A DNA stretch of 55,363 nt from Acidimicrobiales bacterium. GTDB lineage: Bacteria > Actinomycetota > Acidimicrobiia > Acidimicrobiales > GCA-2861595. The stretch is taken from the NCBI GenBank assembly GCA_036262515.1, contig DATAIT010000042.1, positions 1 to 55,363 on the forward strand, written 5' to 3'. This document shows positions 1 to 37,977 of this stretch, in pieces; the stretch's first letter is position 1, and every line of letters starts with the position of its first letter. The notes beneath the pieces are model-generated. The model did no database searches, had not been told where the DNA came from, and saw only the letters and a program-made list of their open reading frames with translations. A program made the translations under genes and the position numbers.

Positions 1-215
1 CCGGGCCGCCACCCCCGCCGCCGCCCGCCGGGCCGCCGCCAGCCCCGACACTCGAGCCCCCGCCTCCGCCAGTCGGGCCGCCACCACCCCTACGACCCGC
101 GGGGCCCCCGCCCCCCGCCGGGCCCCCGCCGCGACCCGCCGAGTCCCCCCCTCCGCCCGCCGGGCGGCCACCACCCCCGCCACCCGCCGGGCCGCCACCG
201 CCCCCTCCACCCGCC
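1..215 (+). repeat. GC-rich low-complexity repeat coding the basic/Pro/Ala tail of FtsI
   Basis: The short block CGCCGGGCCGCCACC and close variants recur from the left edge to about base 215. In the ftsI frame (first full codon at base 2) it reads as repeated ARRAA/T, TTP and APxR units with no stop. It therefore looks like a coding repeat for a disordered, positively charged cytoplasmic tail and not like non-coding sequence. Copy number in such repeats is prone to slippage and misassembly. Confidence 0.7.
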
Positions 216-2140: not shown

Positions 2141-2155
2141 GGCCTGGCGCTCCCG

Positions 2156-7159: not shown

Positions 7160-8283
7160 CGCCGAGGCACGACCGGGTGTGGGCGCTCGTGGCCGGTGGG
7201 GGCACGGCCGGGCATGTCCTGCCCGCAGTAGCCGCCGCCGCCGCCCTGGTCGAACGCGGCCACGCAGCGGAGAGCATCAGCTTCGTGGGATCGTCGCGCG
7301 GGCTCGAGGCCAGGCTGGTACCCGAGGCCGGGTTCTCGATCACCCTCCTGCCGGGGCGGGGCATCGCCCGGCGGCTCACCCTGGACAACGCCGGCGCCGT
7401 GGCCGGGCTGCTGTGGGCCATCGGAAGGGCCTTCGTCCTGACGGCGCGGCGCCGCCCCGCCGTCGTGCTGTCCGTCGGCGGGTACGCCAGCGTCCCCTGC
7501 GCGGCAGCCGCCGTCGCCTTGCGGGTCCCGCTCGTGCTGCACGAGCAGAACGCCGTGCCCGGCCTGGCCAACCGGCTGGCCGCCCGCTTCGCCCGGGCCA
7601 GCGGCGTCTCGTTCGCCGGCACGGCCCTTCCCCGGGCCATCGTCACCGGGAACCCCGTGCGGCCGGACGTGCTGGCCGTGGACCGGTCGGCTACGGGACG
7701 GCGTGCGGCGCGAGCGGCACTCGGTCTCCCCGCCGACGCCACTGTGATCGCGGTGTTCGGCGGCTCCCTGGGGGCGCGGCGCATCAACGAGGCGACGTTC
7801 GGTCTGGTGGAGCGGTGGGCGGCCCGGCCCGGCGTCGCCGTACGCCACGCCGTGGGCGCACGCGACTGGGCCGCGGTGGTGGGACGCCTGCCGGCGGTCC
7901 CGCCCGGGGGACTGACGTACGACGCGGTCGAGTACGAGGAGCGGATGCCGACCCTGTACGCGGCGGCCGACGTCGTGGTGGGCCGGGCCGGCGGCACCAC
8001 GGTGGCCGAGCTGGCCGCCGCCGGTGTGCCGTCCGTGCTGGTGCCGCTGCCCGGCGCACCGAACGACCACCAGACGGCCAACGCCAAGGCCCTGGTGGAC
8101 GCCGGTGCGGCCGTGCTGGTCCCCGACGGCGAGCTCACCGCCGAGCGCCTGGCCGGCGAGCTGGACGCCCTGGTCGGCGACCCGGAACGCCTGGCCGCCA
8201 TGGGAGACGCGGGGCGACGCATCGCCCGCCCCGACGCGGCTGAGCGGGTGGCCGAGCTGGTGGAGCGCCATGCCCGGCAGTGA
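7156..8283 (+). CDS. murG: Lipid II synthase MurG
   Basis: Peripheral membrane GT-B glycosyltransferase (GT28) that transfers GlcNAc from UDP-GlcNAc to lipid I. About 375 aa. It shows the N-terminal glycine loop GGGTAGH, SVGGYAS, HEQN, GNPVR, the second glycine loop FGGSLGA, and the UDP-GlcNAc-binding segment RAGGTTVAEL followed by DHQTANA. The GTG at 7156 is chosen because it overlaps the ftsW stop by four bases and gives a normal MurG N-terminus. The 3' end overlaps murC by 14 nt. Confidence 0.96.
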   Translation: MTPRHDRVWALVAGGGTAGHVLPAVAAAAALVERGHAAESISFVGSSRGLEARLVPEAGFSITLLPGRGIARRLTLDNAGAVAGLLWAIGRAFVLTARRRPAVVLSVGGYASVPCAAAAVALRVPLVLHEQNAVPGLANRLAARFARASGVSFAGTALPRAIVTGNPVRPDVLAVDRSATGRRAARAALGLPADATVIAVFGGSLGARRINEATFGLVERWAARPGVAVRHAVGARDWAAVVGRLPAVPPGGLTYDAVEYEERMPTLYAAADVVVGRAGGTTVAELAAAGVPSVLVPLPGAPNDHQTANAKALVDAGAAVLVPDGELTAERLAGELDALVGDPERLAAMGDAGRRIARPDAAERVAELVERHARQ

Positions 8284-9673
8284 CGTCTTCGACCTCTCGC
8301 GGCCCCGGCGCATCCACGTCGTCGGTGCGGGCGGCATGGGGATGAGCGCCATCGCCTCGGTCCTGGCCGCCATGGGCCACCGGGTCTCCGGCAGCGACCT
8401 CAAGTCGTCGCCGTCGCTCGAGCGGCTGCGCACCCTCGGCGTCGAGGTCGCCGTCGGCCATCGCGCCGAGAACCTCGGCGGCGCCGAGGTCGTGACGATC
8501 TCGACGGCGGTGCCGTCCTCGAACCCGGAGGTGGTCGCGGCCGCCGCCGCCGGCGTGCCCGTCCTGCGCCGGGCCGAGATGCTGGCTGCGGTCGCCGCCA
8601 CCCGGCGAAGCGTCGGTGTGGCCGGCACGCATGGCAAGACGACCACCTCGTCGATGCTGGCGCTGGTGCTGGTGGAGGCGGGCCTGCGCCCGTCCTTCCT
8701 CATCGGCGGGCAGGTGAACGACGTGGGCAGCGGCGCCGTGTGGGACGACGGCGAGTGGCTCGTCGTGGAGGCGGACGAGAGCGACGGCACGTTTCTCGAG
8801 CTGCCGCTCGAGGCGGTCGTCGTCACCAGCGTCGAGCCGGACCATCTGGCCCACTACGGCGGCAGCTTCGACGCCGTGGTCTCCGCCTTCGAGCAGTACC
8901 TGCGCCAGGCCCCGGGGCCGAACGTGGTGTGCGCCGACGACGCCGTCGCCCGGCGGCTGGCGGCCGCAACCGGCGCGGTCACCTACGGCACCGACGAGTC
9001 GGCGACCTACCGGATGTCGGACGTGCGCTCCGGGCGCAGCAGCGTCGCGTTCACGGTCGCCCATGCCGACGACGTCCTCGGGCGCGTCGCCCTCCCGGTC
9101 CCAGGTCTCTACAACGCCCGCAACGCGTGCGCCGCCCTGGTGACCGGCGTCCTGCTGGGCGCGCCGTTCACGGCGGCGGTCGCCGCCCTGGCGCGGTACG
9201 GCGGGGTCGCCCGCCGGTTCCAGTTCCGGGGCGAGCGCGGCGGCGTCACCTTCGTGGACGACTATGCCCACCTCCCGGGTGAGGTGGCGGCCGTGCTGGC
9301 GGCCACGCGCGACGGCGGCTGGTCGCGCGTGGTCGCGGTGTTCCAGCCCCACCGGTACTCGCGCACGGCCGAGGTGGCGGGCGGCTTCGCCGGGGCCTTC
9401 GACGACGCCGACGTGGTGGTGATCACCGACGTGTACGACGCAGGCGAGACGCCCCTACCCGGTGTCACGGGGAAGCTCGTCCTCGACGCCGTGCTCGCCG
9501 CCCGGCCCGCGACGCGGGCGGCCTACCTCCCCGGCCGCCAGGAGCTGGCCCCGTACCTTCGCCGGATCCTGCGAGCGGGGGACCTGTGCATCACGCTCGG
9601 AGCGGGGGATGTCACCCAGCTGGCCGACGAGCTGGTGGGCCCGGTCGCGCCGGGCGACCCTGGACCCGGCTGA
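8270..9673 (+). CDS. murC: UDP-MurNAc:L-alanine ligase MurC
   Basis: Cytoplasmic ligase that adds the first L-Ala to UDP-MurNAc. 467 aa. The N-terminal domain carries the dinucleotide-like motif GAGGMGMSAIA, the ATPase domain has GTHGKTTTSSM near residue 119, and EADESDGTFL follows in the central domain. The C-terminal domain has the MurC-type DDYAHLPGEV and FQPHRYSRT. The ATG at 8270 lies inside the 3' end of murG (14-nt overlap) and gives the expected length. The stop overlaps murB as TGATG. Confidence 0.96.
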   Translation: MPGSDVFDLSRPRRIHVVGAGGMGMSAIASVLAAMGHRVSGSDLKSSPSLERLRTLGVEVAVGHRAENLGGAEVVTISTAVPSSNPEVVAAAAAGVPVLRRAEMLAAVAATRRSVGVAGTHGKTTTSSMLALVLVEAGLRPSFLIGGQVNDVGSGAVWDDGEWLVVEADESDGTFLELPLEAVVVTSVEPDHLAHYGGSFDAVVSAFEQYLRQAPGPNVVCADDAVARRLAAATGAVTYGTDESATYRMSDVRSGRSSVAFTVAHADDVLGRVALPVPGLYNARNACAALVTGVLLGAPFTAAVAALARYGGVARRFQFRGERGGVTFVDDYAHLPGEVAAVLAATRDGGWSRVVAVFQPHRYSRTAEVAGGFAGAFDDADVVVITDVYDAGETPLPGVTGKLVLDAVLAARPATRAAYLPGRQELAPYLRRILRAGDLCITLGAGDVTQLADELVGPVAPGDPGPG

Positions 9674-10599
9674 TGGCCGGCGTGGCGGACGCGGCCGCCG
9701 TCCTCGCCGACCGCGGGCGACGGGACGCGCCGCTCGGAGCGCTCACGACCTACCGCGTGGGCGGGACGGCCGCCTTGCTCGTGGAGGCGCGTTCGGTGGA
9801 CGACCTCGTGCTCGCGGCCCGGGCCGTCGAGGCCGGCCAGGTACCCGTGCTCGTGGTGGGCCGGGGCTCCAACCTCCTCGTTGCCGACGGCGGGTTCCCC
9901 GGTCTCGCCGTCGTCGTGGGCGAGGGCCTCGACGGCGTGGAGGTGGACGTAGGGGCAGCCACCGTCACGGCCGGCGGGGGAGCGTTCCTCCCCGTGGTCG
10001 CCCGCCGCACGGCCGCCGCCGGGCTCACGGGGCTGGAGTGGGCGGTCGGCGTCCCGGGCTCCGTCGGCGGAGCGGTGCGGATGAACGCGGGTGGCCACGG
10101 GTCCGACACCAGCGGCACACTGGCCCGGGCGGGCGTGATCGACCTGGCTGGGGGCAGCGACCGGGGCGCAGCGGCCGTCCACGACGTCGCCGCCGAGGAT
10201 CTGGCCCTGGGCTACCGGCGGTCGGCAGTGCGCAGTACGGAGGTCGTGGTGTGGGCCGAGTTCGCGCTGGCGCCCGGCGACCGCGCCGCGGCGGAGGCCG
10301 CCATCTCCGAGATCGTGCGCTGGCGCCGCGAGCACCAACCAGGAGGCCAGAACGCCGGATCGGTCTTCACGAACCCGCCAGGGGACTCGGCCGGCCGGTT
10401 GATCGAGGGGGCCGGTCTGAAAGGCTTCCGCCTGGGGTCCGCCACCGTGTCGCCCAAGCATGCCAACTTCGTGCAGGCCGACGACGGCGGATCGGCCGAC
10501 GACGTCATGGCGCTCATCGAGGAGGTGCGCAGGCGGGTGGAGGACCGGACGGGGGTGTGCCTGGCGACCGAGCTGCGGCTCGTGGGCTTCGCGCCGTGA
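9673..10599 (+). CDS. murB: UDP-N-acetylenolpyruvoylglucosamine reductase MurB
   Basis: FAD-dependent cytoplasmic enzyme that reduces UDP-GlcNAc-enolpyruvate to UDP-MurNAc with NADPH. 308 aa. FAD-binding motifs include TTYRVGG, VVGRGSNLLVADGG and GVPGSVGGAVRMNAGGHG. The active-site serine lies in QNAGSVFTNP and the acidic active-site residue in TELRLVG at the C-terminus. The QNAGSVFTNP arrangement and length fit the shorter type of MurB. TGATG coupling with murC and GTGA coupling with ftsQ place it inside the same transcript. Confidence 0.96.
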   Translation: MAGVADAAAVLADRGRRDAPLGALTTYRVGGTAALLVEARSVDDLVLAARAVEAGQVPVLVVGRGSNLLVADGGFPGLAVVVGEGLDGVEVDVGAATVTAGGGAFLPVVARRTAAAGLTGLEWAVGVPGSVGGAVRMNAGGHGSDTSGTLARAGVIDLAGGSDRGAAAVHDVAAEDLALGYRRSAVRSTEVVVWAEFALAPGDRAAAEAAISEIVRWRREHQPGGQNAGSVFTNPPGDSAGRLIEGAGLKGFRLGSATVSPKHANFVQADDGGSADDVMALIEEVRRRVEDRTGVCLATELRLVGFAP

Positions 10600-11609
10600 C
10601 CGATCGTCGCGGTCCGTCCGTCGACGACGTGCGCCGGTCCATCGCGCGCGTCAGCGCTCGGAAGGTGCACCCGCAGCAGCAGTCGGGTGATCGGGCTTCC
10701 GGATCGGCGGCACCGACCGCAACGGCGAGCCCGGTGGACTCGGCGATCCGGCCGGCGGCTGCAGCGACTCCGCGGCAGTCGCCATCCGCAGCCGGCACGG
10801 CCTCCGGGGGCGCGCCCGCTGGTGGCCCACCCGCAGGCGGGGCCGGCACCGTCGTGATGGACCCCCGGTTCCGACGTCGGCGCATCGACGTCCGTCGCGA
10901 CGAGGGACGTCGCCGCCTGCGCATCCTCCTCGGATGCCTCGGCGTCGTGGCCGCCGCCGGCGGTGCAGCTGGGGCCGGGCGGTCACCGCTGTTCGACGTC
11001 GATCGCACCGACGTCCGGGGCGCCGAGCGCACACCGGCTGACGAGGTCGTCAGGGCGGCCGGGCTGTCGGGGCACCCGGCCATGCTCGACGTGGACAGCG
11101 GCCGCATCGCCCGCAGCGTCGAGGCCCTGCCGTGGGTCCTGGAGGCGACGGCGCACCGCGAGTGGCCCGGCACGGTCCGCGTCGACATCACCGAGCGCCG
11201 CCCGGCGGCCGTGCTCCCCGCCGCCGGGCAGGCGTGGGCCCTTGCCGATCGCACCGGGCGCATCCTCGAGATCGGATCGGAGAAGCCGGCCGGGCTCCCC
11301 GTCATCGGCAACATCCCGCCGCCGACCAAGGCCGGAGCGTCGGTGCCGGCTGCCGCCACCCCGTCGCTGCGGGTGGCGGCCGCCCTGCCCGCCCCGGTGC
11401 GGGAGCGGGTGGCCGACGTGGCCACGCTGGAGACCGGCGAGGTGGAGTTGCAGCTGACGCCGCCCGGCGGCGTCGTCCGCCTCGGTCCGCCTGTCGACCT
11501 CGAGACCAAGCTCAGCGTCCTGGCCACCGTCCTGGCTCGGGCCGATCTCGCTCGGGTGCGCGTGGTCGACGTCCGGGTGCCCCGGGCTCCATCCTTGACC
11601 CGACGTTGA
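10596..11609 (+). CDS. ftsQ: Cell-division protein FtsQ/DivIB
   Basis: Bitopic membrane protein of the divisome. About 337 aa. Residues 1-90 are a disordered Ala/Pro/Gly-rich cytoplasmic part, followed by a basic stretch (RFRRRRIDVRRDEGRRR), one membrane helix near residues 108-128, and then the extracytoplasmic POTRA domain, recognisable in SPLFDVDRTDVRGAER and WPGTVRVDITERRPAA. The C-terminal FtsQ domain follows. The GTG start at 10596 overlaps the murB stop by four bases. Identification rests on the POTRA pattern and the murB-ftsQ-ftsZ order. The 3' end contains the likely -35 element of the ftsZ promoter. Confidence 0.92.
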   Translation: MTDRRGPSVDDVRRSIARVSARKVHPQQQSGDRASGSAAPTATASPVDSAIRPAAAATPRQSPSAAGTASGGAPAGGPPAGGAGTVVMDPRFRRRRIDVRRDEGRRRLRILLGCLGVVAAAGGAAGAGRSPLFDVDRTDVRGAERTPADEVVRAAGLSGHPAMLDVDSGRIARSVEALPWVLEATAHREWPGTVRVDITERRPAAVLPAAGQAWALADRTGRILEIGSEKPAGLPVIGNIPPPTKAGASVPAAATPSLRVAAALPAPVRERVADVATLETGEVELQLTPPGGVVRLGPPVDLETKLSVLATVLARADLARVRVVDVRVPRAPSLTRR

Positions 11610-11676
11610 CCATGTGGCTAAAGTTTCGACCGTCGCATGAGGTTGACATAACTCTCACCCTCCAGTGGAGGTTGAG
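11595..11676 (+). promoter_or_regulatory. ftsZ promoter region with palindromic operator-like site
   Basis: A sigma-70-like promoter is visible with TTGACC at 11595-11600, an 18-bp spacer and TAAAGT at 11619-11624. Downstream, TTGACATAAC at 11643-11652 precedes a 23-bp inverted repeat at 11654-11676: arms CTCACCCTCC and GGAGGTTGAG around AGT, with one mismatch. The palindrome lies about 110 bp before the ftsZ ATG. In Corynebacterium the MerR-type regulator FtsR activates ftsZ from its upstream region. Assigning this palindrome to an FtsR homologue is inference. Confidence 0.55.
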
Positions 11677-11783
11677 GCTGGGACGGCCCGCAGGTGGGCA
11701 ACTCGTCGGCAGGGTGGCGGCGAGCGTTCGGAGCTGGCAAGCACACGCATCGGAGCGGCACGCCGCTTGCGAGGGAGGCTGAC

Positions 11784-12884
11784 ATGGCCGCAACGCAGAA
11801 CTACATCGCCGTCATCAAGGTGGTCGGCATCGGCGGTGGCGGCGTCAACGCCGTCAACCGGATGATCGACGCCGGCCTGAAGGGCGTCGAGTTCATCGCG
11901 ATCAACACGGATGCGCAGGCGCTGCTGATGAGCGACGCCGATGTGAAGCTCGACATCGGCCGGCAGCTCACCCGCGGCCTGGGCGCCGGCAGCGACCCCG
12001 AGGTCGGGCGCCAGGCGGCGGAGGAGCACCGCGACGAGATCGAGGAGGTGCTCAAGGGCTCCGACATGGTGTTCATCACCGCCGGCAAGGGCGGCGGCAC
12101 CGGGACGGGAGGCGCGCCCGTGGTCGCCGAGGTGGCCAAGTCGCTCGGCGCGCTCACCATCGGGGTAGTCACCCGACCGTTCGCCTTCGAGGGCCGGCGT
12201 CGCGCCGTGCAGGCCGACTCCGGGATCCAGACCCTGAAGGAGAAGGTCGACACCCTGATCATCATCCCGAACGACCGGCTGCTCACCGTGTCGAACGACA
12301 AGACGTCGATGGTCAACGCCTTCAAGATGGCCGACGAGGTCCTGCTCCAGGGGGTCCAGGGCATCACCGACCTCATCACCACCCCGGGTCTCATCAACAC
12401 CGACTTCGCCGACGTGAAGATGATCATGAGCAACGCGGGCACGGCGATCATGGGCATCGGCACGGCGTCGGGCGAGGGTCGGGCCGTCAACGCGGCGCGC
12501 GCGGCGATCACCAGCCCGCTTCTCGAGGCGTCGATCGAGGGCGCCCGCGGCATCCTCCTCAACATCGCCGGCGGCAGCGATCTCGGCCTGTTCGAGGTCA
12601 ACGAGGCGGCCGAGATCATCCACGGCGTGGCCCACGCCGACGCCAACATCATCTTCGGCAGCGTGATCGACGACGCCATGGGCGACGAGGTGCGCGTCAC
12701 CGTCATCGCGGCCGGATTCGACCGATGGGAGGACGAGACGCCGAAGGCCCGGCAGCGGGCCGAGGTCGGCTCGCGTTCGGCCCCCCGCGAGCAGGCGCCC
12801 CGCCCGGATCCGTTCGCCATGCCGGCCGACGACGACATCGATCTGGGCGACGACGAGTTCGACGTGCCGTCCTTCCTTCGTTGA
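11784..12884 (+). CDS. ftsZ: Cell-division GTPase FtsZ
   Basis: Tubulin-like GTPase that forms the Z-ring. 366 aa. The N-terminal GTP-binding domain has [16 protein letters not shown] and the tubulin signature [11 protein letters not shown] near residue 102. The T7 loop ([11 protein letters not shown]) supplies the catalytic acid. A short variable linker leads to the conserved C-terminal peptide [10 protein letters not shown], which binds SepF and other partners. A strong Shine-Dalgarno (GAGGGAGG) precedes the ATG at 11784. It has its own promoter inside and after ftsQ and is followed after 7 nt by pgeF. Confidence 0.98.
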
Positions 12885-12891
12885 TCCGTCC

Positions 12892-13581
12892 GTGACGGCG
12901 GGGCCCCGGACGGGCCTTTCGCAACCGATGACGCTGGCCGGAGCAGGGGTCCGTTTCACGGGCCGGGCCGAGGGCGACATGCGGCCCGGAGCGGGCCCCG
13001 GCGGGGCCGCGCTCGCGACGCTGGCCGGGCGCCCGGTGTCGTGGTTGCGGCAGGTGCACGGCGACCGGGTGGTGGTCGTCGAAGATACCCAGCGGGTGGA
13101 GGGCGACGCCGGCGACGCCCTCGTCACGGCGTCCCCCGACACCGTCCTGGCCGTCCTCACCGCCGACTGCGCGCCGGTGGCGCTCGGCAGCCCCGAGGGC
13201 GTGGTGGCTGCCGTGCACGCCGGCTGGGCCGGGCTCCTCGCCGGTGTGGTGGATCGCGCCGTCGACGCCATGGGCAGACTCGGTGCCTCGCGGGTGGAGG
13301 CCGTCGTCGGGCCGTGCATCCATGCCGAGTGCTACGAGTTCGGCCTCGCGGACCTGCAGCGGTTGGCCGCTGCGCTCGGTCCGAGCGTCCGCTCGACGAC
13401 GGCCGGCGGCGCGCCGGCCCTCGACCTGACCGCCGCCGTGGGCGCCGCTCTGCGCCGGGCCGGCGCTTCGCTCGCCGGCTGCTCCACTGCATGCACGGCG
13501 TGCGAGGCGGACCTTCTGTTCTCCCATCGCGCCCGTCGCGACGAAGGGCGACAGGCGATGCTCGTGTGGGCACGGTCGTGA
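12892..13581 (+). CDS. pgeF: PgeF/YfiH-type multicopper-fold protein (peptidoglycan editing factor family)
   Basis: 229 aa of the YfiH/LACC1 (DUF152) family. The three metal-site motifs are present: RQVHGD near residue 58, TADCAPV near residue 91 and AVHAGWAG near residue 108, followed by GPCI. E. coli YfiH (PgeF) is reported to hydrolyse UDP-MurNAc-L-Ser, removing a MurC error product. Other family members act on purine nucleosides. Its location in a mur/fts operon fits the editing role. The GTG start is 7 nt after ftsZ. The stop overlaps yggS as TGATG. Confidence 0.9.
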   Translation: MTAGPRTGLSQPMTLAGAGVRFTGRAEGDMRPGAGPGGAALATLAGRPVSWLRQVHGDRVVVVEDTQRVEGDAGDALVTASPDTVLAVLTADCAPVALGSPEGVVAAVHAGWAGLLAGVVDRAVDAMGRLGASRVEAVVGPCIHAECYEFGLADLQRLAAALGPSVRSTTAGGAPALDLTAAVGAALRRAGASLAGCSTACTACEADLLFSHRARRDEGRQAMLVWARS

Positions 13582-14288
13582 TGGTGCAGCAAGACGGCCG
13601 CCCCGGGGCCGCTGCGTCCGTCGATCCCGACGCCGTGCGAGGCCGCGTCGACGTCGTGCGCCGGCAGGTTGCCGAGGCGTCAGGCGGACGGGCCGTCACC
13701 ATCGTGGCCGTCACGAAGGGCTTCGGCCCCGACGCCGTCGCCGCCGCACGCTCGGCGGGCATCGACGACGTGGGCGAGAGCTATGCCCAGGAGCTGGCGG
13801 CCAAGGCAAGCGCCCTCGAGGTCGGTGCCGGCGTCGCCCTCCGCTGGCACTATCTCGGCGCCATGCAGCGGCGCAAGGTGCGCGACCTCGCTCCATTGGT
13901 GCGCGTGTGGCAGTCGGTCGACCGCGACGCGGCGGGCGAGGAGATCGCGCGCCACGCGCCCGGTGCCACCGTGCTGGTGCAGGTGAACGTCACCGGCGCG
14001 GCCGGCCGCAACGGGTGCAGCTGGGAGGAGGCGCCCGGGCTCGTCGAACGGATGCGCCGGCTTTCGCTCGACGTCGGCGGACTCATGTGCGTGGCCGGGC
14101 GGGACGACCCCCGGACCGAGTTCCGCCGCCTCGCCCGCCTCGGCCGCGACCTCGAAACGGCGGAGTTGTCGATGGGCATGACGGGCGACCTGGTGGCAGC
14201 CGTGCAGGAAGGGTCGACCATCGTGCGCGTCGGCCGGGCCCTGTTCGGCGAGCGCCCCGTCCCCGCCGCCGGCGGGCGGCGACGATAG
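13581..14288 (+). CDS. yggS: YggS-family pyridoxal-phosphate homeostasis protein
   Basis: PLP-binding alanine-racemase-fold protein without known catalytic activity, involved in vitamin B6 homeostasis. 235 aa. The PLP lysine is in VAVTKGF near residue 44. Further family motifs are GESYAQEL (usually GENYxQE), RWHYLGAMQRRK (usually WHFIGxLQxNK), and LSMGMTGDL with GSTIVRVGRALFG at the C-terminus, which binds the phosphate. The Asn of GEN is Ser here. The ATG at 13581 overlaps the pgeF stop. This gene commonly sits between ftsZ and sepF in Gram-positive bacteria. Confidence 0.93.
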   Translation: MVQQDGRPGAAASVDPDAVRGRVDVVRRQVAEASGGRAVTIVAVTKGFGPDAVAAARSAGIDDVGESYAQELAAKASALEVGAGVALRWHYLGAMQRRKVRDLAPLVRVWQSVDRDAAGEEIARHAPGATVLVQVNVTGAAGRNGCSWEEAPGLVERMRRLSLDVGGLMCVAGRDDPRTEFRRLARLGRDLETAELSMGMTGDLVAAVQEGSTIVRVGRALFGERPVPAAGGRRR

Positions 14289-14310
14289 TGTTCCGGCCAA
14301 GGAGGCTCTG

Positions 14311-14853
14311 ATGCCTGGCATGCTGCGGCGGGCGATGGTCTACCTCGGCCTCGTCGATGACGACTATGACGACTACGAGCCCTCGTACGAGGAGCAGCCG
14401 CCGCCGGTCCAGGCGCGCCAGCCGCGCGCTTACAGCCCGGAGCCGTCCTTCGAGCCGGCTCCCACCAGCAGCATCCGCACCCTTCCGCGCGAGTCACCGG
14501 CAAACCACGAGGGGCCGACCACCATGTCTTCCGTCACGCCGCGGCCGTCGGTCGTGCGCGCCGTCCCACAGGCGCAGAACGCCAAGGTCCACGTCATCGC
14601 CCCCGCCCAGTTCCCCGATGCCAAGGAGATCGGCGACCGGCTCCGCGGCAGCCAACCGGTGATCGTGAACCTCCAGGCGGCGGACCGCGAGCTCGAGCGG
14701 CGGATGATCGACTTCTGCAGCGGCGCCGCGTACGTCCTCGGCGGCTCCATGGACAAGGTGGCGGACCACGTGTTCCTCCTCACGCCCACCAACGTAGAGG
14801 TGTCCGCCGAGGAGAAGCGCAGGTTGCAAGAGCGCGGCCTCTACCGCACGTGA
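14311..14853 (+). CDS. sepF: Z-ring membrane anchor SepF
   Basis: Tethers FtsZ to the membrane in bacteria without FtsA. 180 aa. An N-terminal amphipathic segment (MLRRAMVYLGLVDDD) is followed by an acidic, Pro-rich linker to about residue 85. The beta-rich SepF core follows, with KVHVIAPAQFPDAKEIGDRL and FCSGAAYVLGGSMDKVADH. A strong Shine-Dalgarno (AAGGAGG, near 14299) sets the ATG at 14311. A TAGTGT -10-like element at 14286-14291, in the end of yggS, may give a local promoter. Confidence 0.95.
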   Translation: MPGMLRRAMVYLGLVDDDYDDYEPSYEEQPPPVQARQPRAYSPEPSFEPAPTSSIRTLPRESPANHEGPTTMSSVTPRPSVVRAVPQAQNAKVHVIAPAQFPDAKEIGDRLRGSQPVIVNLQAADRELERRMIDFCSGAAYVLGGSMDKVADHVFLLTPTNVEVSAEEKRRLQERGLYRT

Positions 14854-14893
14854 CCGCCGCGTCCCCGAGGGCGACGGCCGCCAGGTTGCCGGC

Positions 14894-15151
14894 ATGAACG
14901 CCATCTGCCTCGTCCTCAACCTCTATCTGATCGCGCTGTTCGGACGGATCATCCTGAGCTGGTTCCCGATCTCTCCGGACTCGCCGATGTCGCAGGTGTT
15001 CTCGTTCCTGTACACGATCACCGAGCCCGTGCTCGGACCGGTTCGCCGCCTCCTCCCGCCCGTCGGTGTCGGCGGCATGGGCCTCGACCTTTCACCGATC
15101 ATCGTCACCCTCGGGCTGCGCCTGCTGCTCTTCCCGGCACTGGGGTGTTGA
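14894..15151 (+). CDS. yggT: YggT-family small membrane protein
   Basis: 85 aa with two hydrophobic segments (about residues 3-20 and 62-82) separated by the YggT signature region ILSWFPISPDSP and EPVLGPVRRLLPP. Members of this family are found next to sepF and divIVA in many Gram-positive bacteria, and a role in envelope or division processes has been proposed but is poorly defined. The gene lies 40 nt after sepF and is likely co-transcribed with it. Confidence 0.9.
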   Translation: MNAICLVLNLYLIALFGRIILSWFPISPDSPMSQVFSFLYTITEPVLGPVRRLLPPVGVGGMGLDLSPIIVTLGLRLLLFPALGC

Positions 15152-15174
15152 TCCCTCTTCCGCCCGCATCCCGG

Positions 15175-15180
15175 TAGCAT
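15175..15180 (+). promoter_or_regulatory. TAGCAT -10-like element before divIVA
   Basis: TAGCAT ends 2 nt before an ATG (15183) and 8 nt before an in-frame GTG (15189). If it is the -10, transcription should begin near 15187-15189. The GTG would then be the start of a leaderless message and the ATG would not be transcribed. No good -35 is visible at normal spacing (a TTGATC lies 21 bp upstream). Confidence 0.4.
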
Positions 15181-15188
15181 CGATGAGC

Positions 15189-15881
15189 GTGGACATCTCA
15201 CCGCAGACCATCAGGCAGGTGGAGTTCCGCGACAAGAAGCTGGGCGGGTACCACCCCGACGACGTCGACGAGTTCCTCGAGCAGGTCGCGTCGGGGCTCG
15301 AGATCCTGCAGGAGCGCCTCCGACTCGCCACCGATAGGGCCGTGCGCGCCGAGTCGGCGGCGGGGGAGAGCCGAGAGGACGACGAGTCGCTGCGCAAGAC
15401 GCTGATCCTCGCCCAGCGCACCGCCGATCTGGCCGTGCAGGAGGGCAGGGAGCAGGCGGCCCGCATCCTGGAATCGGCAGAGATCGACGCGGCGGCGATG
15501 ACGGCGGCGGCCGAGGAGGAGGCGCGCCGGCTCCTCGACGAGGCGAACACGCAGCTGCGCACCGACGTCACGCGTCTCGAAACGACGCGCCGCCAGCTCG
15601 ACGAGGATGTCGACCGGCTGGTGCGCTACGTCGACGAGCAGCGTGCCCGTGTCAAAGCAGTGTTCAGCGACGCCATTGCGAACCTCGATGCTGCGCTGAT
15701 GCTGCCGGAGCGACCGGTGCTGAGCAGCGGCACGGTCCACGACGCGACCTACGCGAGCGAACCCCCACCCGGCGATCAGCGCAGCGCCACATTCGACCGC
15801 GACCTGTTGTCCGACTTCGTCGATCGAAGTCCCGAGGACAACGACTCGCCCGGTTGGGCAGGGTCACAGCACCAACCCTGA
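15189..15881 (+). CDS. divIVA: DivIVA/Wag31 polar growth and division scaffold
   Basis: Coiled-coil scaffold that recognises curved membrane at poles and septa and directs wall growth in actinobacteria. About 230 aa. The N-terminal lipid-binding domain reads DISPQTIRQVEFRDKKLGGY with HPDDVDEFLEQV, followed by long coiled coils from about residue 30 to 165 and a Ser/Pro/Asp-rich tail. The GTG at 15189 is preferred because it gives the family's usual N-terminus and sits 8 nt after a TAGCAT element. An ATG at 15183 would add only MS. It closes the dcw cluster. Confidence 0.93.
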   Translation: MDISPQTIRQVEFRDKKLGGYHPDDVDEFLEQVASGLEILQERLRLATDRAVRAESAAGESREDDESLRKTLILAQRTADLAVQEGREQAARILESAEIDAAAMTAAAEEEARRLLDEANTQLRTDVTRLETTRRQLDEDVDRLVRYVDEQRARVKAVFSDAIANLDAALMLPERPVLSSGTVHDATYASEPPPGDQRSATFDRDLLSDFVDRSPEDNDSPGWAGSQHQP

Positions 15882-15912
15882 CCGGCCCCGCCCCGCACTT
15901 CGTTACGTCGGG

Positions 15913-15931
15913 GGTTTCCCTTGGAGAAACC
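15913..15931 (+). terminator. Possible hairpin after divIVA
   Basis: GGTTTC (15913-15918) and GAAACC (15926-15931) form a 6-bp stem with a 7-nt loop 32 nt after the divIVA stop. There is no T-tract, as is common in high-GC actinobacteria, so it is only a candidate. The rest of the 178-bp gap holds a TAGGAT -10-like element at 16018-16023 for the next gene. Confidence 0.3.
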
Positions 15932-16059
15932 GTTGCGGGCGCTCGCTGTTCCGGATGACGACGCCTCATCGGTTCGGATCGTTCGTCGAACATCGCAAAG
16001 CTTTCCCGAAGGAGCACTAGGATGCCCGGCGTTCCGTTGACGACCCGGATGGTGGCTTC

Positions 16060-17328
16060 GTGTTGCTTCTCGTAACGATCGGTTTGGTGGTGGTCGGAGC
16101 GATCGCGTTGGTGATCGGCTTCGTCAGCAACTCGCTCGGACCGATCTACCTGTCCATCGCCTGCAGCGTGATCGCCGGCATCGTGCTGGTCGTGTTCTCG
16201 CGCATGGCACGCCGGAGCGACAGCTCGTCGGCTGCGCCGGCGACCACGTCACCCGGGTCGTGGTCACCGAGCACGACGTCGGCCCCGCCGCCTCCGCCCG
16301 CACCGGCGCGGACGCCTGCATTCGAGCGCGCACCCGAACCCGCCGCTGCGCCCGCCGCCGCGCCGCCTCCCCCGCCTCCGTCACTTCGTCGTGAGCCGGA
16401 GCCGACCATCACGCTGGACGAGCCCGTCTCGGCGCCGGCCCGGTCGGCCGCCGCGTTCGACGGTGACGACGACTTCCCCATTCCCGGTTACGACTCCATG
16501 CGCTCCAGCCAGATCGTCGCCATGCTCGGCGACCTCGACCTCGACGATCTCGACATGGTCCAAGAGCGCGAGGAGCAGGGCAAGAATCGGGCCACGGTCC
16601 TGCGCCGCGTCGTCGAGCGCATCGACCAGCTCGAAGCCGAGGAGACGGTCGACGCCCCGCTCGTCGAGGAGCCGATGCCGTTGGCGCGGGACGACGACGA
16701 CTTCGCGGCAGCCACCGACGGCGACTTCACCGCCGCCCCCGCAGGGTCTGTGGCCGACGACGACGGATTCCCGATCGCCGACTACGACGAGCTGTCGGCC
16801 GACGAGATCATCGCCGTGCTCGACGACCTCGAGGACGATGAGCTCGACATGGTGGCGGCGCGCGAGGAACGTGGCCGCAACCGCGTCGAGATCCTCGAGT
16901 ACATCGACGACATGTTCGAGGAGGTCGACGACGGAGCGGAGCCGGCTGCGCCCGTGGTGCCGCCCTCTCCGCCACCTCGCACGCCCGCCAAGAAGGCGCC
17001 GGCCAAGAAGGCGACGGCGGTCAAGAAGGCGCCGGTGAAGAAGGTTGCGGCGAAGGTCGTCGCCACGGCACCGAAGAAGGCGCCGGCCAGGCCCGCGGGC
17101 GCCACGAAGGCAGCGCCTCGCAAGGCGGCGGCCAAGACGCCGTCGGCCACCCGGGCCGTGTCGCCCGGCACCAAGGGCGCCGGTCGTAAGGCAGGGGCAC
17201 CCGTAGTCAAGGTGGCGAAGGCGCCGGCGAAGGCGCCGGCGAAGGCGCCGGCGAAGACGGTGGCCACCCGGGCGACGGCCAAGAAGGTCCCGGCCAAGAA
17301 GGTGGCTGCGCCCGCCCGCAAGCGCTGA
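16060..17328 (+). CDS. Membrane protein with two tandem helical repeats and an H1-like Lys/Ala/Pro tail
   Basis: Not recognised as a named protein. 422 aa. Residues 1-50 hold two membrane helices joined by a short loop. A Pro/Ala/Ser linker runs to about residue 140. Two homologous segments of about 57 residues follow, one starting DDDFPIPGYDSM and one DDGFPIADYDEL; each continues with an I..ML/VLxDL motif and a (Q/A)EREEQGKNR / AREERGRNR end. From about residue 305 the tail is rich in KKAPAK and KAPAK units. The GTG at 16060 is the first start after an in-frame TAG at 16018. The gene follows divIVA and converges on ileS. A membrane-to-nucleic-acid or membrane-to-partner tether is conceivable but unproven. 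Confidence 0.8.
   Translation: MLLLVTIGLVVVGAIALVIGFVSNSLGPIYLSIACSVIAGIVLVVFSRMARRSDSSSAAPATTSPGSWSPSTTSAPPPPPAPARTPAFERAPEPAAAPAAAPPPPPPSLRREPEPTITLDEPVSAPARSAAAFDGDDDFPIPGYDSMRSSQIVAMLGDLDLDDLDMVQEREEQGKNRATVLRRVVERIDQLEAEETVDAPLVEEPMPLARDDDDFAAATDGDFTAAPAGSVADDDGFPIADYDELSADEIIAVLDDLEDDELDMVAAREERGRNRVEILEYIDDMFEEVDDGAEPAAPVVPPSPPPRTPAKKAPAKKATAVKKAPVKKVAAKVVATAPKKAPARPAGATKAAPRKAAAKTPSATRAVSPGTKGAGRKAGAPVVKVAKAPAKAPAKAPAKTVATRATAKKVPAKKVAAPARKR
17221..17256 (+). repeat. 12-bp tandem repeat coding APAK units
   Basis: Three exact copies of GCGCCGGCGAAG in tandem, in frame, within the basic tail of the preceding membrane protein. Confidence 0.85.
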
Positions 17329-32790: not shown

Positions 32791-33889
32791 GTGTTCGAGG
32801 GCCCGGTGCCACCCGATGCCCTGGCCGGGCGCGAGACCGAGCTGGCCGCCCTGCGGGACCCTGCCGTGCACGGCCGGTTCAGCCTCCTCTTCGGCCCCCG
32901 CCGCTACGGCAAGACCAGTCTGGTGGGCCGCCTGGCCGCCGACGCCGAGCGTGACCGGGAGCTGGCCGTCGTGGTCGCCGACCTGCAGGGCGTCCTCACC
33001 CTCGACGACATCTCCAGGCGCTTGGCCGCCGCCTACCGCGGCCGGGCGCGCTCGGCGGTGGCCGACACCCTGGTGCGAGTCCTGGCCGGGGTGGGCGACG
33101 CCATGTTGCGCACCGCCGGGCGCAGGGCAGGGCTGAGCCTCGGGGACGGGCTGATCCGTCCCGACACCCACCCGCCGGCAGCCGCCCTGGAGGAGCTCCT
33201 CGAGGTGCCCTGGGAAGCGGCAGGGCGCACCGGCGTCCGCATCCTGGTGGTCCTCGACGAGTTCCAGGCCGTCGCCGACGTCCATCGAGCCGACGCCGTC
33301 CTGCGCTCGAAGATCCAGCACCAGCGCGAACGGGTGTCCTACCTGTTCTCCGCTCCGAGCAGGGCGTGCTGTCGGCGCTCTTCTCTGCGCGCGCCGTGCC
33401 GCTGTTCGGCCAGGCCGAGCGCTTCGAGCTCGGGCCGCTGCCCGCCGACGTGGCCGCCGAGTACGTCGCCGGCCGTTTCGAGGAGACCGGTCGCGGAGTG
33501 GGCGGGCCCTGCACCCGCTGGTGGCGCGGCGGCAGGGCCACCCGCAGCGGCTGAACCTGCTGGCCCACCACGTGTGGGGCCTGGTCGGCGACGTCGCGTC
33601 TGCCAGCTCCGACGACTGGCTGGCCGCCCTTCAATCCTGCCTGGCCCACGCCCGACCCGAGTCCGACGCCATCTGGACCACGCTCAACGCCAGCCAGCGA
33701 AAGGTCCTTCGCCTGGTGTCGTGGGGCGAGCCCCTGGCCGGCTCCGCCGCCGGCCGCCTCGGGCTGATCGGGGGGTCGGTGGCGGCGGCGCGCACGGCGC
33801 TGGTGCGCTCCGGGGTGCTCGACGAACATCGCCGTCTGGTGGATCCGCTGCTCGGCATCTGGCTGCGCCGGGCGTATCCCTCCCCCTAG
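32791..33889 (+). pseudogene. AAA-type ATPase gene with two apparent 1-nt frameshifts
   Basis: Three overlapping frames together encode one plausible ~366-aa ATPase. Frame 1 (32791 to about 33352) has the Walker [12 protein letters not shown] near residue 36 and Walker [10 protein letters not shown] near residue 152. The message then continues in a second frame ([20 protein letters not shown]) to about 33505, and in a third ([20 protein letters not shown]) to the stop at 33889, giving a winged-helix-like C-terminus. Each switch equals the loss of one G, at TCC-GCTCC near 33352 and GGCGGGCCC near 33505. Either a sequencing error or a true pseudogene fits. It follows a TACGCT -10-like element and converges on the kinase gene with a 4-nt overlap. 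Confidence 0.8.
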
Positions 33890-36366
33890 CGCTGCCCGCC
33901 CGCTCGGCGAGTGCGCTCGGCGGTGCCGGCGAAGGGCCCGACGGCGAGCACCTGGCGGAGGTAGGCCGAGAGGCGGACCTCCGCAGGGACACCGGTGGCG
34001 TCCTCGTGGCGGTTCAGCCGCCATTCCGCCTCGGCCACGTCCTTGCGGGCGCGCGAGAGGTCACGGTCGAGGTCGACCCGCTGCCGGGCGGCATCGGCCT
34101 CCACCTGCTTCTGGCGGTGGACGACCTTCTCGTGCTCCGACCGCCACCGGTCGCGGATCGCGTCCGCCCGGCGCTTCGCCTCGGCCCGGGCCGACTCCGC
34201 TTCTGCCGCCACCGCGGCCCGTCGCCCGTCGAACTCGGCGCGGATCGACGCGACCCGTTCCGGGGGCAGCGCGTGCGGCACCTTGAGCTGCGCGACGCCG
34301 GACACCTGGCGCCGCCACCGCAGCATGGCCGCCGCCTGGCGCTCGTCGACCGCCGTCACGAGGAGCTTCCTGCCGTCGCGGCACGTCACGACACCGCCGG
34401 GCTTGTCGATGGTCACGTCCGTGAAGTCGGCGGCCGTGCGGACGTCGTCGAGGGCCAGGCGGCGGACGACCATCTCGCTGACGCCGCACGTGGTGGACGC
34501 CACCAGGCTGTGCTGGGTGAGCTGGAGGTCCATCACCGTGGCCTGGAGGTCGACGAGCGCCGCCGCGCGCGCCTCCTTCTCGGCCCGCCCGATGGCCCGC
34601 TCGCGCTCGGACAGCCCGGCCAGGGCCGTCTCGAGGCCGGCATCGACGTCACGCAGCTCCGCGTCCTCCTTCGCCCGAAGGCGCGCTCGTGCATCGGCCG
34701 CCTGGCCGGCGGCGGCGTCCTCCGCCTCGGCGACCTCGGCCCGGCGCCGTGCCAGGCGGTCGACGGCGGCGACCGCGTCGCCGGCTGCCCGGCGGGGCTC
34801 GGCCAGGACCGCACCGACGGCGCGCGCCGACTGTGCCTCGGGCGTGCGGAGGAACAGCTGGCGGATGCGCGCCAGCCCGGCGATCGCCGCTCCCAGGACG
34901 CCGGCGGCCGCCAGCGCGGGAGGCACTCCGACCAGCGCGACGACGATGAGGCACACCGTGGCCAGAGCGGCCATGGCCACTGCGTGCCTGGCCTCGTGGA
35001 GGTCGCCGCCGAACGTCACCGGGACGACGGGCGACGAACCGGCGCCCGCCCGTGCCTCGGCGGCCCGCCCGTCGACCCGGTCGGGGCCGTGGACTCCGGC
35101 CGTCAGGGCGTCGTAGAGGCTGCGCCGCAGGTCGTCATCCGCCCGTGAGGCGGCGCCCCGGACGCGCTCCGGCTCGATCTCGGCGAGGGCCCCGTCGGGA
35201 CCGGGACTCGGGTCGGCACCGGCACGGGTGTCGAGCGCACGTGCGCCGGCACCCGGAAGCGGAGCCGGCCACCGTGGTTCGCCGGGAGACGCGTCGGCAC
35301 GCGTCCACCGGGAGCCGGCAGGGACCGGTGGCCTCCCGGACTTCCCGGGCACCGCAGCCAGCGGGCCATCCCACGGAGGGAGCGCTCCGCCGCTCAGATC
35401 CGACGAGGCGGCCGCTGCCGTTCCCCGGGAGGCGGCCGCCCTCGACAGCACGGCGGGCATTCCGGCATGGAGCGCCGGAGCCAGCGCCAGCGAAAGGGGA
35501 GGTACCTCGTTCGGGTGCATGGCGAGGAACGAGCGGAGGAGTTCCGCCAGCGCGGGGACGCCCGGACCGTCGCTCGTCTCCATGGCGGCCAGGGCGGCTG
35601 ACCGGTCGGGGTCCTGCAGGTCGTGCTGGCGCAGCAGGAAGGCCTCCTCACCGCCGTCGAGGCGGCCCCAGAGCAGGGGATCGGCGGCCAGCGCGGCCAG
35701 CGAGGCGTAGATGACCCAGGAGGAGAACGAGTCCAGGTCGGGCCCGAAGTCGCCGACCTCGCGGCCGGGGTGCTGGTAGTTCCGGTGCCCGCGCTCGGTG
35801 CCCGTCAGGCCGGCGAGGCCCGGCACGAACATGCCGTCGTAGTCCACCAGGCGGAGGTCGCCACCGGGCGCCACCAGGATGTTGCCGTGCTGGAGGTCCC
35901 CGTGGGCCACGCCGTCGGCGCGGAGGCGTTCGGCCAGCGCGGTCACGCGCGTGGCCAGGTAGCCGAGGGCGGCGCCGTCCCAGAGGTGGCGCTCGACATA
36001 GGCCAGCAGCGGCTCGGCCCGCACCCACTCCATCTTCAGCACGGGCCACCATGCGCCGTCGACGCGGATCCCGCACGGCTGCAGGTCGAAGCCGACGCGC
36101 CACGACGACTCGAGGGTGGCCAGGTGGGCCCGCAGGGCGGCGTAGCGCGACCGCTCCTCGTCCAGCGGCCGGACGAAGCAGCGCACCGCCCAGCTGCGCC
36201 CTCCGGCGCCGTCGAGGCGGAACACGACGGCCACGTTCCCGCTGATGGCGCGCGGAAGTCCGAGGGGGCCGAGGACGGGGACCGCCGCCGCCAGTTCGGG
36301 ATCGGCGAAGCACAGGGCCGGGTCCTGCAACGCCTCCATGTACGAGGTGGCGCCGGGAAGCCTCAC
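33886..36366 (-). CDS. Membrane-anchored protein kinase of a TerY-P-like triad
   Basis: About 826 aa. Residues 1-290 are a protein-kinase-like domain with the catalytic loop HGDLQHGN (155-162) and DYD in place of DFG (175-177); the usual glycine loop is weak. A Pro/Ala-rich linker follows. Residues ~463-500 form two membrane helices, then coiled coils (530-610 and 700-790) flank a region (620-695) resembling degenerate helix-hairpin-helix repeats (RRLALDDVRTAADF and ERQAAAMLRWRRQ). The GTG at 36366 overlaps the PP2C stop (GTGA). Kinases with C-terminal helix-hairpin-helix modules next to PP2C and vWA genes are described in TerY-P systems. The substrate is unknown. Confidence 0.8.
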   Translation of the reverse strand: MRLPGATSYMEALQDPALCFADPELAAAVPVLGPLGLPRAISGNVAVVFRLDGAGGRSWAVRCFVRPLDEERSRYAALRAHLATLESSWRVGFDLQPCGIRVDGAWWPVLKMEWVRAEPLLAYVERHLWDGAALGYLATRVTALAERLRADGVAHGDLQHGNILVAPGGDLRLVDYDGMFVPGLAGLTGTERGHRNYQHPGREVGDFGPDLDSFSSWVIYASLAALAADPLLWGRLDGGEEAFLLRQHDLQDPDRSAALAAMETSDGPGVPALAELLRSFLAMHPNEVPPLSLALAPALHAGMPAVLSRAAASRGTAAAASSDLSGGALPPWDGPLAAVPGKSGRPPVPAGSRWTRADASPGEPRWPAPLPGAGARALDTRAGADPSPGPDGALAEIEPERVRGAASRADDDLRRSLYDALTAGVHGPDRVDGRAAEARAGAGSSPVVPVTFGGDLHEARHAVAMAALATVCLIVVALVGVPPALAAAGVLGAAIAGLARIRQLFLRTPEAQSARAVGAVLAEPRRAAGDAVAAVDRLARRRAEVAEAEDAAAGQAADARARLRAKEDAELRDVDAGLETALAGLSERERAIGRAEKEARAAALVDLQATVMDLQLTQHSLVASTTCGVSEMVVRRLALDDVRTAADFTDVTIDKPGGVVTCRDGRKLLVTAVDERQAAAMLRWRRQVSGVAQLKVPHALPPERVASIRAEFDGRRAAVAAEAESARAEAKRRADAIRDRWRSEHEKVVHRQKQVEADAARQRVDLDRDLSRARKDVAEAEWRLNRHEDATGVPAEVRLSAYLRQVLAVGPFAGTAERTRRAGGQR

Positions 36367-37139
36367 CGGGACGGCTCCACCCGCACCAGGGTGAGATCGT
36401 CGTTGCGCAGGAGACGGCTGGCCCGCTGGGCTGTGGCCCACTCCGCGAACGCGGCGGTGTCGTCGCAGGCGATGCGGTTGAGCGTCCTCCAAGGGGCGTT
36501 CCCTGCGGCCGCCTCCGCGAGGAACCAGGCGGCGAGGGCGTCGGTGGCGAGGAAGAGCACGTCACCCGAACGCCAGGTCCCTTCGGCCCGCTCGAGGTGG
36601 GCGACGACCCGGCCGAGGTGGCGGGCCGAAGACGGGACGAGCTTGGGGGCGTTGCAGAAGTCGGCCGCGTCGGCGAGGGGGAAGGCGGTGATCAGCTGCT
36701 CGTCGCGGACCTGGAACAGGCATGAGTCGCCGAGCGATACCGCCGACCAGCGTCCCTCGCCCCCCGGCGGGCGGGTGAGCTCCACGCCGAGGAGGGTGGC
36801 GTGGGCGCCTCGATCGAGACCGGGCTGCTCGAACCACTCGATCGGCCGTTCCTCCGCCTCGCGACCCTGACGGTAGGCGACAAGGGTCCTGTCCCATCCC
36901 GACATCGCAGAGGCCATGACGTCGGCCATGCCGTGGCGGCGCGGCGACCGGCACCACGTGCGCACGAGCGTCTGCGCCCAGAGCCCGCTGAGCATGCTCT
37001 CGCTGGCGCCGTCGGCTACCGCCAGGCGCAGGCGCGGCGTGGTGCGCGGGCCGGTCCGCCGGGGGAAGTACGCGTCCTCGTAGTGCTCGACGGGGCTGCC
37101 GTCACGGGGGAGCCAGAAGGAGGAGACGACGCAGCGCAC
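36363..37139 (-). CDS. PP2C-type protein phosphatase of a TerY-P-like triad
   Basis: About 258 aa. Metal-binding motifs of the PPM/PP2C family are present: AVADGASESMLSGLW (Asp-Gly), SLGDSCLF, FLATDALAAW and the terminal NDDLTLVRV. The domain is on the short side for PP2C and lacks an obvious membrane segment, so it is likely cytoplasmic and acts opposite the adjacent kinase. The start is uncertain: the GTG at 37139 lies 8 nt after the vWA stop, and the reading frame is also open further upstream inside that gene. It is coupled to the kinase by a GTGA overlap. Confidence 0.82.
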   Translation of the reverse strand: MRCVVSSFWLPRDGSPVEHYEDAYFPRRTGPRTTPRLRLAVADGASESMLSGLWAQTLVRTWCRSPRRHGMADVMASAMSGWDRTLVAYRQGREAEERPIEWFEQPGLDRGAHATLLGVELTRPPGGEGRWSAVSLGDSCLFQVRDEQLITAFPLADAADFCNAPKLVPSSARHLGRVVAHLERAEGTWRSGDVLFLATDALAAWFLAEAAAGNAPWRTLNRIACDDTAAFAEWATAQRASRLLRNDDLTLVRVEPSR

Positions 37140-37146
37140 GCAGCAA

Positions 37147-37977
37147 CTAACGCAGTTCCAGCACCTGCGTGCCGACGTCGAGGAACTGCACGATGGCACT
37201 GATGTCGGCGTTGAAGGCGAAGCCCCGCGCACCCTCGTCGAGGAAGAGGTCCTGGCGGGCGGCGGCAGCCCGCATCTGCTCGGGAAGGGGGCTCGACATG
37301 CGGTGCAGGTGACGGGCGTAGTCGTCGGGCAGGCCGCGGTCGGAGGCGGGGAAGACCACCGGCTCGGACCGGCCGCTCGACAGGTGCAGGTTGAACAGCA
37401 GCGCGTGGCCGTCGGCGCTGGTGAGGGCCTGCAGGGCCTGGGCCAGCGGGAGCGGGTCGCCGTCGGTGGACACCCCGTCGGTGATGTTCACCACGACCGG
37501 CGGGAAGCAGCCGGGATGCTCGTCGAGCCAGGCCGTGAGCACCCGGTGCGCTCGCGTCAGGGCGGCGCACATGGGCGTGTCGCCGTAGGCAACGGGGGAG
37601 AACCACGTCGGGAACCGCACCGTGGTGACGGCCGAGTGGCGGCCGTTGCGCCGCGACCGTTCCTCCATGCGGGCCGGACGGGCGGCCACCTCGCTCAGCG
37701 GGACGAGGTCGCGCCCGGCGAGGGCACCGTCGAGTATCGGCCCCACGGCGGCGCCGTAGCCGACGACGCCCACGTGGAAGTAGTCGCGAACGCCGTCTTC
37801 CTTGGCGCACTTGATCGACAGCTCCGACAGCAGGCGGTTCACCGCGTCGGCCACCGCCTCCGCCTTGGTCATGGGCACGTCGCCGCCGCCGATGTTGTCG
37901 CCCATCGACTCGGACTGGTCGATGAGGAACAGGAAGCAGGTCGGATTGGCCCGGCTGATCTCCGCGGAGAAGGGCAT
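37147..37977 (-). CDS. TerY-like von Willebrand factor A domain protein
   Basis: 276 aa, nearly all one vWA domain. The metal-ion-dependent adhesion site is intact: DQSES at residues 20-24 (DxSxS), the TPM threonine near 134, and NITDGVSTDGD with Asp near 167. No signal peptide or membrane helix, so intracellular. It is the first gene of a three-gene minus-strand unit with PP2C and kinase, the composition described for TerY-P triads. No other ter genes (terB, terC, terD) are seen in the window. Confidence 0.85.
   Translation of the reverse strand: MPFSAEISRANPTCFLFLIDQSESMGDNIGGGDVPMTKAEAVADAVNRLLSELSIKCAKEDGVRDYFHVGVVGYGAAVGPILDGALAGRDLVPLSEVAARPARMEERSRRNGRHSAVTTVRFPTWFSPVAYGDTPMCAALTRAHRVLTAWLDEHPGCFPPVVVNITDGVSTDGDPLPLAQALQALTSADGHALLFNLHLSSGRSEPVVFPASDRGLPDDYARHLHRMSSPLPEQMRAAAARQDLFLDEGARGFAFNADISAIVQFLDVGTQVLELR

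Follow-up and report, generated by a model that had tools for sequence, protein, structure and literature searches.

The window, which is the whole 55,363-nucleotide stretch analyzed here, comes from a high-GC actinobacterium of the order Acidimicrobiales and carries on its minus strand a triad of genes, arranged head to tail, for a vWA protein, a PP2C phosphatase, and a predicted membrane-anchored protein kinase (Table 1). The three open reading frames form a tight operon, as the preliminary description of this DNA had stated: 7 nt separate the vWA stop codon from the likely GTG start codon of the PP2C gene (position 37139), and the PP2C and kinase genes overlap by 4 nt (GTGA). Scans for promoters and terminators found nothing. 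On the plus strand, positions 32791 to 33889 of the window hold an AAA-type ATPase frame with weak matches to Pfam AAA_22/AAA_16, which is seemingly frame-shifted near 33380-33430 and is missing at the same site in a congener.

Table 1. Genes of the triad and predicted parts of the kinase in the window
Feature	Coordinates	Strand	Evidence
vWA protein (TerY-like), 276 aa, intact MIDAS	37147..37977	-	PADLOC TerY 5e-92, full length; homologue alignment
PP2C phosphatase, about 258 aa, GTG start	36363..37139	-	PADLOC PP2C 1e-26; invariant metal-binding Asp
Predicted membrane-anchored Ser/Thr-type protein kinase, 826 aa, GTG start	33886..36366	-	PADLOC STK_OB 4e-67
Kinase domain, residues 1-298, with HGDLQHGN 155-162, DYDG 175-178, and Arg62 at the beta-3 Lys position	35473..36366	-	AlphaFold2 model; PDB fold matches; conservation
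Low-confidence, fast-evolving linker, residues 299-445	35032..35472	-	pLDDT mostly <50; dN 0.87 versus congener
Predicted transmembrane hairpin, residues 456-507, Arg-rich after TM2	34846..35001	-	Hydropathy 2.8; model helices
Outgoing long helix, residues 509-618	34513..34842	-	AlphaFold2 model, pLDDT mostly >90
Degenerate HhH tip with inserted beta strands, residues 619-701	34264..34512	-	hhalign to YegI HhH family; HHH_5 in Mycobacterium gordonae homologue; model pLDDT 95.6
Returning long helix, residues 702-791	33994..34263	-	AlphaFold2 model

The preliminary description had noted a resemblance to TerY-P and proposed a profile search; in that search all three proteins matched PADLOC TerY-P profiles. 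The TerY profile covers the vWA protein from 1 to 276 of 277, the PP2C profile detects the phosphatase, and STK_OB matches the kinase at residues 4-265 only, that is, within the kinase domain. The MIDAS of the vWA protein was correctly described as intact, since residues D20, S22, S24, T134, and D167 are all present and are invariant in 25 vWA proteins, including E. coli YegL. Likewise, the acidic residues D22, D43-G44, D138, D200, and D247/D248 of the phosphatase are invariant in 20 homologues. In comparison with the congener, dN/dS values of 0.064/0.476 for the vWA protein, 0.080/0.569 for the PP2C phosphatase, and 0.113/0.655 for the kinase domain were obtained. As the triad is retained in the congener with ratios well under 1, the three genes are more than a chance arrangement, and the structured parts of the triad are under purifying selection.

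The length of the kinase, its HGDLQHGN motif, and its two transmembrane helices, all reported earlier, were confirmed from the sequence, the hydropathy profile, and an AlphaFold2 model, in which residues 1-298 resemble protein kinases in the PDB (Z about 16-17). As for the catalytic residues, H155, G156, D157, L158, and N162, together with the D175-Y-D-G stretch, are invariant in 21 homologues. Nevertheless, the preliminary description had missed that the beta-3 lysine is replaced by arginine (Arg62), as it is in 16 of 21 relatives, the other 5 having lysine. Since, in addition, the Pfam Pkinase model barely detects the protein (E=0.17), catalysis is not assured. The substitution, a nonconserved alpha-C glutamate among the relatives, and the weak Pfam match would fit a pseudokinase, with the triad working as a phosphorylation reader or scaffold. 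We consider this improbable: the catalytic HGDLxxxN loop and D175 are invariant, a PP2C phosphatase with intact metal-binding residues is kept alongside, and the same arginine occurs in OB-tailed relatives, whose tail type is that of the TerY-P modules reported to be antiphage. Moreover, E. coli YegI is described as autophosphorylating although it lacks conserved kinase motifs, and PphC as dephosphorylating YegI, in passages of PMC13232886 that cite Rajagopalan et al. 2018 and 2020.

Beyond the kinase domain, the two predicted transmembrane helices span about residues 456-478 and 483-507 by hydropathy and in the AlphaFold2 model, and the whole region from this hairpin to the end of the returning helix (456-791) was modeled with good confidence, unlike residues 299-445. 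The Arg-rich stretch that follows the second helix suggests that the arm, and with it the kinase, is cytoplasmic. At the end of the arm, the tip region aligned to the YegI HhH family with 98.7% probability and a score of 91 in an hhalign profile alignment, whereas 20 column-shuffled controls reached a best score of 18 and at most 2.5%; a repeat with A6 against YegI alone gave 95.3%. In the M. gordonae orthologue, the same region scores 30.0 with Pfam HHH_5 against a cut-off of 27, and the window kinase has no direct Pfam HhH match at its tip. Judged from these profile comparisons, the tip is homologous to the HhH of YegI. The preliminary description had pointed to a degenerate HhH-like region and proposed structure prediction of residues 620-695. 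The homology bears out the first point, although the window's own copy is degenerate. The prediction yielded a confident model, a short helix pair with inserted strands, and this model has no significant fold match in the PDB. Foldseek and VIA also matched the tip to PH/FERM-like folds, but these matches (Z under 5) did not reach significance and were set aside. A hidden OB fold in the tail was likewise not detected by the OB HMM, which finds such a domain in seven relatives, and the window kinase has no CxxC pairs of a zinc ribbon. The HhH hairpin motifs have been lost in the clade of the window, yet the region remains under purifying selection (dN 0.257 and dS 0.563 versus the congener), which says that the tip is still used for something. 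Since the tip is degenerate and its model lacks a clear PDB match, nucleic-acid binding may have been lost in this lineage.

The antiphage TerY-P triad, described by Gao et al. in 2020, is said to consist of the vWA protein TerY, a PP2C phosphatase, and a kinase with a C-terminal OB fold (STK-OB), and Anantharaman et al. in 2012 reportedly described a TerY-P kinase with a C-terminal zinc ribbon. The triad of the window has the gene set and order of the former, with a vWA protein that is alike end to end and a matching PP2C and kinase domain; however, a transmembrane hairpin, long helices, and an HhH stand where STK-OB has its OB fold, and in its order the triad has no clear defense island around it. 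With TerY-P of the ter and CoCoNuT type it has in common the vWA/PP2C/kinase logic and, through its relatives, an association with restriction-type genes, but those kinases carry a zinc ribbon. In E. coli, yegI lies beside a PP2C gene (pphC, also yegK) and a vWA gene (yegL), and the same gene order is found in relatives, including plasmid-borne ones with COG4248 kinases. YegI, which is known to be a kinase of the inner membrane, shows the layout of the window kinase, namely, kinase, transmembrane hairpin, coil, HhH, and coil. The membrane anchor, which the preliminary description had called odd, has therefore a precedent in a protein encoded beside PP2C and vWA genes. In contrast to this common tail, the kinase domain of YegI is only remotely similar (BLAST E=0.04; 95.4% in a profile comparison), its catalytic loop reads VVGDVNQNS, and it does not match STK_OB. 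Since the TerY-P profiles match the triad of the window while YegI, PphC, and YegL do not reach them, the catalytic parts of the triad are, at the level of sequence, TerY-P-like and not YegI-like. The triad is thus a hybrid: neither TerY-P proper, lacking an OB fold or zinc ribbon, nor YegI proper, given the different kinase domain. The Hanks-type membrane kinases PknA and PknB have one transmembrane helix and extracytoplasmic regions; they share the kinase fold, whereas the hairpin of the window kinase is predicted to put its tail back in the cytoplasm. A PknA/PknB-like layout, with one transmembrane helix and a C-terminal domain predicted outside, occurs in TerY-P-like triads of another actinobacterial family (L019 and L020, in G120 and G269).

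A kinase-based search found the full triad in 7 of 59 genomes of the order, the window's genome counted, with identities within these seven of 66-89% for the vWA proteins and 56-83% for the kinase domains; within the HhH-tailed family, coil and tip parts share 13-68% identity. In the genome collection as a whole, 29 vWA loci were found in Actinomycetota, Chloroflexota, Planctomycetota, Rokubacteria, Bacteroidota, and others. The three genes largely stay together, as a check of neighborhood conservation proposed earlier could have put in doubt: 19 of the 22 loci with enough downstream sequence to be assessed keep the vWA-PP2C-kinase order on one strand, the exceptions being L039, L044, and L050. 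The first of these (5951-8840) encodes two kinase-like repeats, is divergent from the vWA gene, and has no PP2C gene detected nearby. By HMM, 10 kinases have an HhH tail and 7 an OB tail, and the remainder have tandem kinase repeats, short tails, or a transmembrane segment with an outer domain. In the tree, HhH tails lie inside one 12-row group (97/94), which includes one tandem-kinase and one HATPase-fused row, and OB tails form one group (88/86). Because each tail type falls in one group, tail exchange was rare but real. Almost all HhH tails belong to a single clade. Apart from G042, every HhH-tailed relative has the transmembrane hairpin. The HATPase-fused kinase (L029 of G041, 6985-8832) has a triad kinase arm that is cut and followed by HATPase_c (Pfam 1.2e-15) about 36 bp from the contig end, and it is either a real fusion or an assembly chimera. 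A Gemmataceae triad (L037, 1968-5444) encodes an 1158-aa kinase with a transmembrane segment and a long C-terminal region of repeated FCFLSGVGGGF-like segments.

As for the surroundings in the window, the triad is flanked by a YyaL-like gene on one side and by an L,D-transpeptidase gene and then men genes on the other, with dnaE and the dcw cluster upstream. A defense island was looked for in the window by reading and Pfam and was rejected, the neighbors being dcw, ileS, dnaE, YyaL-like, L,D-transpeptidase, men, and Tad-type genes; no McrBC or CoCoNuT genes were seen there, and ten neighbors scanned in the order gave generic PADLOC matches only (HEC-09-like, WYL, and HTH). The same chromosomal site is occupied in five lineages of the order, with synteny of the triad and the L,D-transpeptidase gene in G000, G001, G002, G012, and G018; in four of these, men genes are also in view. 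The triad might be a housekeeping switch for membrane or envelope stress, whose arm would sense the state of the membrane or a partner protein and whose degenerate HhH would be a protein-binding tip; the adjoining L,D-transpeptidase and menaquinone genes hint that it is linked to the envelope or to respiration. The loss of the hairpin motifs from a tip still under purifying selection is consistent with such a switch. Nevertheless, the tail shows homology to genuine HhH, and the flanking housekeeping genes also lie together in the triad-less genomes G004, G017, and G008, where the site is empty, so that the synteny says little about function; we regard this explanation as possible but rather unlikely. 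A mobile origin in this order was rejected in view of the shared site in the five lineages and the empty site in those three genomes. Carriage on plasmids or phages was also discarded, as relatives of the triad were found on two cyanobacterial plasmids only and in no phage records or viral contigs. The triad in this order appears to be a fixed chromosomal locus, vertically kept, rather than a defense-island gene.

The neighborhoods of some relatives differ in content; they are a small number of loci, and we attach no statistic to them. In M. gordonae (L036), a DruE-like helicase gene (1e-184) lies upstream of an HhH-tailed triad and a GmrSD-type gene downstream; with a UvrD-type gene they occupy one 60% GC stretch (58-16496), which is likely a defense cluster. 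Another actinobacterium (L034) has DrmC- and DruE-like genes beside an HhH-tailed triad, and a type IIG/DrmM-like methylase gene lies near L032, whose kinase runs past the contig end. An OB-tailed triad (L042) sits inside a BREX-like locus with BrxC, PglX, and PglW-like genes and an extra kinase gene upstream. In P. aeruginosa, TerY-P gives protection against phage (PMC10889362), and anti-phage activity of TerY-P is also mentioned in a portion of PMC11090510 that cites Gao 2020. The triad might therefore be a stand-alone anti-phage system like TerY-P, in which the kinase would be activated by an entering phage or by its DNA at the membrane and, by phosphorylating a target, would block the infection. 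Besides that protection, the match of all three components to PADLOC TerY-P families and the company that same-tailed relatives keep with DruE-, GmrSD-, and DrmC-like genes speak for it. However, five lineages of the order have inherited the triad vertically at a single housekeeping locus where no clear defense genes adjoin it, the window kinase lacks the OB domain that the tested systems have, and no relative was found in phage records or viral contigs, so we find an anti-phage system doubtful here. The TerY name and the association of TerY-P with tellurite resistance in the literature (PMC11090510) would also allow a tellurite-resistance module, in line with the tellurium connection drawn in the preliminary description. 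That connection was not supported, as TerD is absent from the whole genome (a 129-contig assembly) and, as already noticed then, the window contains no ter genes; we judge such a module very improbable. TerY-P has further been proposed to be a phosphorylation switch that senses metal and is tied to restriction systems (PMC11090510; PMC4978471).

Overall, we consider it probable that this TerY-P-like triad with a YegI-type tail is a reversible kinase/phosphatase switch with a membrane-tethered sensor arm of nucleic-acid type and a vWA adaptor. The transmembrane hairpin would tether the kinase to the inner face of the membrane, although the relative G042 lacks that hairpin, which counts against the tether, and both kinase and arm would face the cytoplasm. 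The long two-helix arm would end in the HhH tip, a module of nucleic-acid-binding type. By analogy with PphC and YegI in E. coli, the PP2C phosphatase may reset both the kinase and what it phosphorylates, and the vWA protein with its MIDAS, from what is known of its family, could be a metal-dependent scaffold or adaptor. An HhH-derived module at the tail position that holds an OB fold or zinc ribbon in other TerY-P kinases suggests that nucleic acid may be the signal, which is less certain in the lineage of the window given its degenerate hairpins. The role may lie in stress or defense, against which the housekeeping neighborhood in the window counts.

More tentatively, and with considerable doubt on our part, TerY-P and YegI triads may be one superfamily whose kinases swap tails of nucleic-acid type (OB, zinc ribbon, or HhH), and the inner-membrane arm described here could detect incoming DNA, in a form domesticated to a fixed locus in one actinobacterial order. 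Two systems treated separately in the literature examined, anti-phage TerY-P and E. coli YegI/PphC/YegL, would then become joined. If their logic is indeed shared, the signal of YegI, which would be nucleic acid at the membrane, and the activation of TerY-P could be tested alike. It is suggested, too, that triads exchange the sensor tail rather than the catalytic core.
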